A stretch of 64,000 nt of DNA from Candidatus Peribacteria bacterium. GTDB lineage: Bacteria > Patescibacteriota > Gracilibacteria > Peribacterales > Peribacteraceae. Both the position numbers and the translations under genes were made by a program. Below the pieces are notes generated by a model that saw nothing but the letters and a program-made list of their open reading frames with translations, had not been told where the DNA came from and ran no database searches. Below, in pieces: positions 28,699 to 60,301 of the stretch (position 1 is the first letter of the stretch; every line of letters starts with the position of its first letter). The stretch is taken from assembly GCA_023038255.1 (NCBI GenBank), contig CP082927.1, forward strand, positions 1,006,146 to 1,070,145. Reading direction: 5' to 3'.

Positions 28699-28773
28699 TG
28701 GCAGCCCCAAGGAGAATCGAACTCCTATTTCATGGATGAGAACCAGGTGTCCTAACCGTTAGACGATGGGGCC
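28699..28773 (-). tRNA. tRNA-Glu (anticodon CUC)
   Basis: Read on the minus strand it folds into a full cloverleaf of 75 bases with an encoded CCA end. The acceptor stem pairs GGCCCCA with TGGGGCT (first pair G-U), the D arm is TCGTCTAACGGTTAGGA, the T arm AGGAG/CTCCT closes TTCGATT. The anticodon loop TTCTCAT gives CUC, reading GAG. The anticodon stem has one C-U mismatch at its second pair. It is the only tRNA gene I can find in the window. Confidence 0.9.
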
Positions 28774-57525: not shown

Positions 57526-57562
57526 TGTGTCCTGCCCCGCGAAGCCTTGAGGCGAAGTGGGG

Positions 57563-58635: not shown

Positions 58636-59127
58636 TCAGTCCGAATCCGCCGGTTTTTCTTGGATGTCGGATGGGAGTAATCCCGAAATGTCATCAATGT
58701 AAAGGCGCCTTTCAGGAAACTGAGTGAGAATGCTATCGATTGCCTGTCGCACCCTGTGCCTGTTTGCTTCTGGAATGCCTCTGCGGATCATTACCTGTTG
58801 TACGGCGTAATCCAATGGAATAGTCATCGTATTCAGTGCATTGATCATACGGTGCTGAGGGGGAAATTTGACGCATTCTAGGACTGCTTTTTCTGCAATC
58901 AAGGGCACCGAGTGTTCAGAAAAATAACAATAGGCCATAAAACAATGGACTGTCTGTGCTACAACAGCGAAAACAGGATGGCCGAGAAAGTAAGAAAACA
59001 GGCTACTTTTTGAACACCAAATGTATTCAAAATATAGTTTCATATCTCCGTCCAGCACACTCAGTTGCGTATTTTCCCCATAAGCGTACGATGACGTGAT
59101 TTGTTCAGCACAGAGCGAACAGGTCAC
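58636..59127 (-). CDS. Unknown protein
   Basis: 163 residues. Cysteine-containing N-terminus (MTCSLCAEQI, FEYIWCSKSSLF), a hydrophobic patch (PVFAVVAQTVHCFMAYCYF), then a more ordinary charged C-terminal half (IRRGIPEANRHRVRQAIDSIL). No family recognised. It lies downstream of a long gene-free structured region on the minus strand. Confidence 0.6.
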   Translation of the reverse strand: MTCSLCAEQITSSYAYGENTQLSVLDGDMKLYFEYIWCSKSSLFSYFLGHPVFAVVAQTVHCFMAYCYFSEHSVPLIAEKAVLECVKFPPQHRMINALNTMTIPLDYAVQQVMIRRGIPEANRHRVRQAIDSILTQFPERRLYIDDISGLLPSDIQEKPADSD

Positions 59128-59164
59128 TCACCCACTCGGGGAATCAGGACACACACAACAAAGA

Positions 59165-59560
59165 CAAACACAGTTCTTTTGATCCCCATCGGATCACCCC
59201 GCGAAGCTCAAAGAGCGTAGTAGGGTAACTCCACCGCAAGCTAACAGAGAGAAGGATGATCGTGTGCTTTGGCACTCGTTCCTCCCGGCCACACACCTGC
59301 AACCCTTTGCATACATTCTGGGTCTAGGTACGTGATTGTTAAGTCCGCGCTCATCCTCCTCTCTGCTCTGTAACGTTCGTGCGGTCGATGTGAGGTCGCT
59401 CACCGTACGCAGCCCCTTCTCTCCCCAGTGTTCCCCTTGGCCCTGTGCCTTGTTCGTGGAACCGGTACGGGGACTTCGTCAGGTCACGAGGAGAAACAAG
59501 AGACCAGAGCAAGGCAGAGAATCGAGGACTCCTCTCCTCAGTCAACCTTCATGTATAGGT
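59165..59560. ncRNA. Candidate structured RNA, identity and strand unresolved
   Basis: No plausible gene lies between 59128 and 59737, but the sequence is rich in paired segments: 59245-59259 with 59351-59365 (15 positions, complete on the minus strand with one G-U), 59443-59452 with 59510-59519, GATCC/GGATC at 59181-59195, TGCAA/TTGCA near 59300, and GTGAG/CTCAC near 59390. Length (about 400) and isolation fit RNase P RNA, but I could not find its conserved blocks (GAGGAAAGTCC, ACAGAA-CGGCTTA) on either strand. tmRNA and SRP RNA signatures were also not found. Some pairings favour the plus strand and some the minus strand, so the direction is open. Confidence 0.45.
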
Positions 59561-59594
59561 AGCTCAATGTTATATTTATAACGTCGATAGCTAC
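59559..59594. repeat. Nested inverted repeat next to the structured region
   Basis: GTAGCT (59559-59564) pairs with AGCTAC (59589-59594), and inside lies GTTATATTTATAAC (59569-59582), a perfect palindrome. Possible operator or RNA hairpin; AT-rich core could also be promoter-like. Confidence 0.4.
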
Positions 59595-59615
59595 GAAGGA
59601 CGACAAAACAAAAAC

Positions 59616-59643
59616 AAAAAGGGCCCACGCAAGTGGCCTTTTT
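59616..59643 (-). terminator. Terminator downstream of efp
   Basis: AAAAAGGCCAC pairs with GTGGGCCCTTTTT on the minus strand, followed by TTTTTGTTTTTG. It can also act on the plus strand (TTTTTG). Confidence 0.8.
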
Positions 59644-59737
59644 GTTATAAGAAGAAAATTGTTTCCACTTCCTCTCTCTCCAGTGGGAGTGTGGGCGGCA
59701 AGGAGAGGGTGGCCCGAAGGGCCGGAAGAGGCAATCT

Positions 59738-60301
59738 CTACTTCGTGACTCTCGTCATATACAGCCCCGTCTCCGTATTCACCTTGATGATGTCCCCTTC
59801 ATTGATGAAGAGAGGCACGTTCACTTTAATGCCAGTTTCCAGCTTGGCAGGCTTGTTACCGCCAGTCGCTGTATCACCTTTCACACCCGGAATGGTTTCC
59901 ACCACTTTGAGGTCGACTGTTGCCTTAAGCGTAATACCAATGGGCTTTTCTTCAAACACCAGTGCGTCCACTTCATTGCCATCCACCAGGTATCCGGCTC
60001 CATCACCAATTATCTCGGCGGGGAGATCGAATTGATCGTAGTTCTCACTGTCCATGAAGGTGAACATGCCATCGTTGCTGTAGAGGAACTGCACGCGGCG
60101 GCGGCCGACGTCTGCTGGCTGAATCTTTTCACTTCCCTGGAAGTTACGGGCAATAATCGCACCGGTCTTCAGGTTCTTGAGTTTGCACTGCATGTTCGCC
60201 TTATCCTGGCTTTTGCGGCCGAAGACGGACGTGAGCACAACGAACGGTTCGCCATCAATCTGGATAGCGCGACCCGGCTTTAACTCTGTAATTTCGTACA
60301 T
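59738..60301 (-). CDS. efp: Translation elongation factor P
   Basis: Relieves ribosome stalling at polyproline. 187 residues with KOW-like domain I and two OB domains; the conserved end GDIIKVNTETGLYMTRV is present. In domain I the loop that normally carries a modified Lys or Arg reads G28-R-K-S-Q-D-K-A35; by simple alignment a glutamine rather than Lys/Arg sits at the tip, with basic residues beside it. Upstream lies the minus-strand anti-sigma gene; the leader before ATG 60301 has no Shine-Dalgarno. A strong terminator follows. Confidence 0.94.
   Translation of the reverse strand: MYEITELKPGRAIQIDGEPFVVLTSVFGRKSQDKANMQCKLKNLKTGAIIARNFQGSEKIQPADVGRRRVQFLYSNDGMFTFMDSENYDQFDLPAEIIGDGAGYLVDGNEVDALVFEEKPIGITLKATVDLKVVETIPGVKGDTATGGNKPAKLETGIKVNVPLFINEGDIIKVNTETGLYMTRVTK

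Follow-up and report, generated by a model that had tools for sequence, protein, structure and literature searches.

We identified a stand-alone gene for a predicted non-coding RNA of ~550 nt at 59098–59646 (+ strand) of the window, the 64,000-nucleotide stretch of a Candidatus Peribacteria bacterium genome analysed here. The RNA belongs to no catalogued family, and its family was undescribed before. The locus is almost certainly a real, conserved RNA gene. Our main reading, to which we assign a probability of about 0.8, is that it encodes a trans-acting structural RNA of a new family that is transcribed under rRNA-type antitermination. Near-universal in the sampled bacterial family (Peribacteraceae) and equipped with an rRNA-like start signal, it is probably a housekeeping RNA that has so far gone unrecognised.

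The gene lies between a 163-aa open reading frame (ORF; 58636–59127, − strand) and a gene that, from its sequence, we take to be efp (59738–60301, − strand). An earlier note on this DNA had described the stretch as free of genes, and we observed only short ORFs (64–81 aa) within it. Across the core, relatives kept no reading frame open (each frame was open in 13 to 21 of 44 rows), and protein coding was therefore rejected. Folding of 59128–59650 was 4.0 SD below dinucleotide shuffles on the + strand and 2.8 SD below them on the − strand. The relatives' alignment contained 152 G-U cells compared to 37 A-C cells, an excess that supports the + strand. Elsewhere in the window, a tRNA-Glu (CTC) at 28699–28773 (− strand) is the sole tRNA. 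The features of the locus are as follows.

59065–59092, + strand: promoter, with −35 TTGCGT (59065–59070), a 16-nt spacer and −10 TACGAT (59087–59092); conserved in the relatives' alignment
59098–59646, + strand: predicted transcript, ~550 nt (546 by motif count)
59098–59125, + strand: putative 5′ hairpin GATTTGTTC / GAACAGGTC; GATTTG start conserved, pairing read from sequence alone
59148–59172, + strand: A/C-rich unpaired linker of the ACAAANACA type, conserved in relatives
59173–59183, + strand: boxA-like element GTTCTTTTGAT, an atypical copy judged by eye (relatives G[AC]TC[CA]TTCACA)
59245–59269, + strand: long hairpin, 5′ arm, beginning CAGAGAG (stem search and covariation)
59341–59365, + strand: long hairpin, 3′ arm (stem search and covariation)
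59362–59371, + strand: core helix 1, 5′ strand; pairing in 97.0% of cells, both-side changes at 5 pairs
59509–59518, + strand: core helix 1, 3′ strand (GCAAGGCAGA; covariation)
59378–59409, + strand: hairpin B (core helix 2), loop GAGG at 59392–59395
59422–59473, + strand: helix C (core helices 3 and 4), 59422–59426 with 59469–59473 and 59430–59433 with 59459–59462
59474–59505, + strand: H-type pseudoknot (core helices 5 and 6), kept in other families; S1 59474–59479/59486–59491, S2 59482–59485/59502–59505, A-rich L3 59492–59501
59524–59539, + strand: hairpin D, loop CCUC at 59531–59534; consensus GAGGgctCCTCcCCTC in relatives
59559–59595, + strand: 3′ hairpin with a C / GAU internal loop, a nested palindrome (covariation, 33 rows)
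59613–59646, + strand: intrinsic terminator, stem AACAAAAAGG/CCTTTTTGTT, with a ACAAANACA linker ahead

The earlier note had placed the element at 59128–59737. A folded RNA does lie there, with boundaries that we redraw at both ends: the transcript probably starts ~30 bases upstream of 59128, downstream of the promoter at 59065–59092, and probably ends near 59646, leaving 59650–59737 outside it. A pattern search found a promoter of the form TTGC..TACAATG ahead of a GATTT start in 28 of 46 rows; this part is missing from several rows. The terminator, also proposed in the earlier note, was recovered as the stem at 59613–59646, and 34 of 46 rows contained the form ACAAANACAAAAAGRCC..GGYCTTTTT. 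Both ends could be read in 25 of 46 copies, and in these the promoter-to-terminator distance had a median of 479 nt (range 346–563 nt).

The structure is confirmed by covariation in relatives, a check that the earlier note had named. The core contains six covarying helices, including the H-type pseudoknot (36 pairs). Overall, 92.6% of 1569 cells were paired, compared to 83.0% in shuffles and 39–49% with partners slid. Both-side changes were observed in 24 of the 36 pairs, and 0 of 500 shuffles attained any of the five measures used. The pseudoknot consensus comprises a stem CYUCGU/ACGAGG, a stem GGUY/RACC and the A-rich strand AGAAACAAG. The GGUY/RACC stem was paired in 96.6% of cells, with one pair being C-G in 22 rows and U-A in 16. 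Alignment A1 held 44 of 46 rows (L060 and L061 left out), alignment A2 held 61 of 70 scored loci, and L057, L058, L060 and L061 were left out of the RNAalifold run.

Outside the core, the 15-bp stem of the earlier reading corresponds to the long hairpin, in which 59245–59269 pairs with 59341–59365. This hairpin was paired in 85.7% of cells compared to 68.8% in shuffles (42 rows; L057, L058, L060 and L061 left out, and automatic register poor for L008, L020, L031, L046 and L049). The nested palindrome is likewise present, and as the 3′ hairpin it was paired in 87.6% of cells compared to 72.6% in shuffles, with a covariation score of 0.556 compared to 0.242 (33 rows). For the number of pairs changed on both sides, one of the five measures used, 64 of 500 shuffles reached its value. 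The GAGG loop of hairpin B probably contacts the CCUC loop of hairpin D. The two loops matched in 173 of 205 cells compared to 163.7 in shuffles, a level that 1 of 2000 shuffles attained (41 of 44 rows, the other 3 having no hairpin D). The partners vary, with GAAG facing CUUC in one row. At the same places in other families we observed AGACC/GGUCU, GACUAA/UUAGUC and UGACC/GGUCA.

The leader of the RNA carries a boxA-like element near its 5′ end, as rRNA leaders do. In the stretch separating the linker from the long hairpin, the family consensus is G[AC]TC[CA]TTCACA[CT]CA[CT]CG, followed by GTAGAGAG in many copies. The element, which we take to resemble the boxA of E. coli rRNA, is followed by GUAGAGAG in the RNA leader much as in 16S rRNA leaders of the same family. 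Recognised by a strict pattern, it was found in 22 of 44 copies (0.46 expected from mononucleotide shuffles) and was not found by this pattern in the remaining 22. A leader was obtained from 28 of 29 16S rRNA loci. The same boxA-like element plus TAGAGA was present in 24 of these 28, as G[CA]TC[CAT]TTCACA[GC]CATCG with TGTAGTAGAGA or a near variant (0.09 in shuffles). In 10 of 32 loci of distant homologues, a pattern search found TTTGAAAAC-type elements instead. The copy in the window is atypical and is followed by a short hairpin and a dispersed palindrome. The boxA-like leader is likely to be functional. Nus factors mediate antitermination of rRNA through boxA, according to PMC4807359, and the rRNA-type leader element suggests the same for this RNA.

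The dispersed palindromic element (CCCCGCGAAGC..GCGTAGTRGGG) lies at 59197–59225 in the RNA leader and again near 57532–57560. Related copies were observed elsewhere in the genome, at C1:653235 and C1:366686, and in the 16S leader of G029. The idea that this palindrome splits the boxA of the window was dropped: GTTCTTTTGAT sits where a boxA is expected, and the palindrome has few copies elsewhere. The TAGAGA pattern was not found in leaders L235, L237, L238 and L250, and 16S rRNA matches came in several pieces near contig ends in G011, G016, G023, G031, G060 and G069. Both observations possibly reflect insertions or assembly breaks.

We assessed the distribution of the RNA by blastn and with two covariance models. 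The 610-base region matched 33 of 58 genomes by blastn, namely its own and 32 of 34 others of the family, and matched 0 of 23 genomes from other families of the class. Model R1 (168-nt core, window 59355–59522, 44 rows) matched 71 of 74 Peribacteraceae genomes at 109 places, with at least two places in 36 of the 71. It matched 56 of 57 family genomes that were at least 90% complete. The genomes missed were G075 and G090 (75% and 82% complete) and G027, the one miss among the more complete genomes, in which blastn found the core at two contig ends. Outside the family, R1 matched 11 of 279 class genomes (26–40 bits). The ten non-family alignments shown kept the GGCAG strand and mostly kept the pseudoknot.

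Model R2 was built from 8 non-family rows and no family row. It matched 89 of 353 class genomes, some at two places: 32 belonged to the family and 57 to 13 other families (f4, f9, f16, f21, f22, f23, f25, f27, f28, f29, f31, f32 and f34). The matches in f4, f9, f16 and f25 were weak (22–34 bits). R2 recovered the same bases of the window gene at 22.7 bits, and because it holds only non-family rows, this independently confirms homology. Across the phylum, R2 matched 11 of 379 genomes drawn, all within this class. R1 and R2 together left the majority of class genomes outside the family unmatched, which could be due to limited model reach or true absence. From near-universal presence in the family, the RNA extends with falling scores into the 13 further families of the class, and the hosts have very small genomes. 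A bolder reading, which we hold tentatively and at somewhat below even odds, is that this is a core RNA of a whole Patescibacteria class, of housekeeping-like regularity and under rRNA antitermination, serving as a ribozyme, a ribonucleoprotein scaffold or a ribosome-associated RNA specific to reduced cells.

A known housekeeping RNA in diverged form (RNase P RNA, tmRNA, 6S or SRP RNA) would account for the size, the multi-helix fold and the presence in nearly all family genomes. The genome has its own copies of two of these elsewhere: an ordinary RNase P RNA (RF00010) at C1:46208–46585 (143.1 bits) and a tmRNA (RF00023) at C1:366106–366519 (84 bits). There was no RNase P RNA match in the window, and both ARAGORN and Rfam were negative for tmRNA there, refuting both candidates. 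The 6S RNA model (RF00013) was not matched at the locus, and 6S RNA was rejected; a weak 6S-like candidate at G000:C1:141287–141440 (35.7 bits) falls below the family cut-off. The search for SRP RNA covered these loci only. The Rfam comparison called for in the earlier note gave no gathering-score match in the window region and no family in 20 related loci or distant homologues. At E up to 10, only chance-level matches were found in the window region, and the weak ones (patAB leader, isrJ and others) were rejected as terminator-like or chance. A housekeeping-RNA copy is therefore extremely unlikely. Where the earlier note had suggested a very divergent or a new RNA, novelty stands, and a divergent RNase P RNA is excluded because an ordinary one lies elsewhere and Rfam is silent. 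Diverged RNase P RNAs have been reported in candidate-phyla genomes, and those described in PMC8172020 are not the window RNA. A literature search, with most subscription papers beyond reach, returned no description of an RNA of this kind from these bacteria.

The intergenic position and the intrinsic terminator would also suit a cis-acting leader, a riboswitch or attenuator of a neighbouring gene, yet the next gene in the window, efp, is on the opposite strand and the RNA has its own promoter. Downstream of the RNA, the nearest ORF of at least 150 aa lay on the opposite strand at 44 of 56 family loci and on the same strand at the other 12; outside the family it lay on the opposite strand at 6 of 11 loci. 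The upstream ORF was divergent at 35 of 56 family loci and 10 of 11 others (ORFs called mechanically; some genomes gave more than one locus). The neighbours also differ, being secF and TPR protein genes, glyA and a HerA/TraG-like ATPase gene, efp (in the window), DUF881 genes, or gmk and ssb. The RNA gene is independent of any fixed neighbouring gene and holds no fixed position upstream of a co-directional one, which makes a cis-acting leader very unlikely. A copy number of one to three per genome, in several contexts, might instead suggest a mobile or parasitic element, such as an intron or a ribozyme-bearing repeat. Against this, there is no conserved ORF, conserved neighbourhoods recur across genera, and the exact core pattern matched 0 viral contigs in IMG/VR, a result on which a viral origin was also rejected. 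We give a mobile element hardly any credence.

Under our main reading of a trans-acting structural RNA, RNA polymerase would start at the gene's own promoter, transcribe the leader with its rRNA-type boxA-like element and end at the intrinsic terminator. The boxA would let Nus factors shield the long untranslated transcript from Rho, as with rRNA. The RNA would fold into the long hairpin, a closed core around the A-rich pseudoknot and the 3′ hairpin, with the B/D loop-loop contact. It would then act in trans, with presumed binding partners, as a stable, probably abundant structural RNA; action in trans is itself very likely. Because the leader is common to rRNA, it offers a first handle on the role of the RNA and predicts abundance. 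Two narrower forms of this reading are specific ideas worth testing. Production may be tied to rRNA synthesis, with the RNA acting on or with ribosomes, as the leader element common to the same family's 16S rRNA leaders would suggest. No direct link was found, however, and boxA may serve only to keep Rho from terminating a long untranslated RNA, so we regard this form as unlikely though worth pursuing. Alternatively, the large, ornate fold, A-rich linkers and loop-loop contact recall self-assembling RNA-only particles like GOLLD, ROOL and OLE. The OLE, GOLLD, ROOL and raiA Rfam models gave no gathering-score match in the window or the 20 related loci, and the loop contact is read as intramolecular; a particle of this kind is rather improbable.

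It is rare to find a new large RNA family conserved across great evolutionary distances, and several known families of this kind are central to the cell. What is new here is the family, and the wider category of large structured bacterial RNAs is already known. Like OLE, GOLLD and ROOL as portrayed in PMC12286853, the window RNA is large, highly structured and non-coding, with function largely unknown. It differs from them in having no Rfam match, in being known so far from one candidate-phyla class and in its boxA-type leader. It shares conserved structure and pseudoknots with the raiA-motif RNA (ModT), but ModT spans 215–260 nt (PMC11706538), whereas the window RNA family spans 346–563 nt and has no Rfam match. 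A boxA-like element followed by TAGAGA is common to the family and to the 16S rRNA leader (boxA, PMC4807359), whereas the predicted transcript contains no rRNA and has no Rfam rRNA match. The size range and a pseudoknot are shared with tmRNA and RNase P RNA, both of which lie elsewhere in the genome. The covariance models and named loci make the RNA testable in existing metatranscriptomes.

The exact core pattern was found in 31 named contigs, labelled mostly Peribacteria, Peribacteraceae or Peregrinibacteria. One contig labelled Candidatus Uhrbacteria (L212, JACRJW010000048.1) carries the family's RNA core and is probably a misbinned Peribacteria contig. In some genomes, such as G013, G017, G019 and G028, one copy lies beside secF/TPR genes and another close to glyA or HerA-like genes. 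Resolution in a tree of 51 family core copies was too weak to establish two ancient lines of paralogues. The window's own genome has a second copy outside the window, at G000:C1:930886–931047 (L062). Together with L021 and L047, it represents a shorter RNA type without hairpin D and the 3′ hairpin, possibly a paralogue whose role is reduced.
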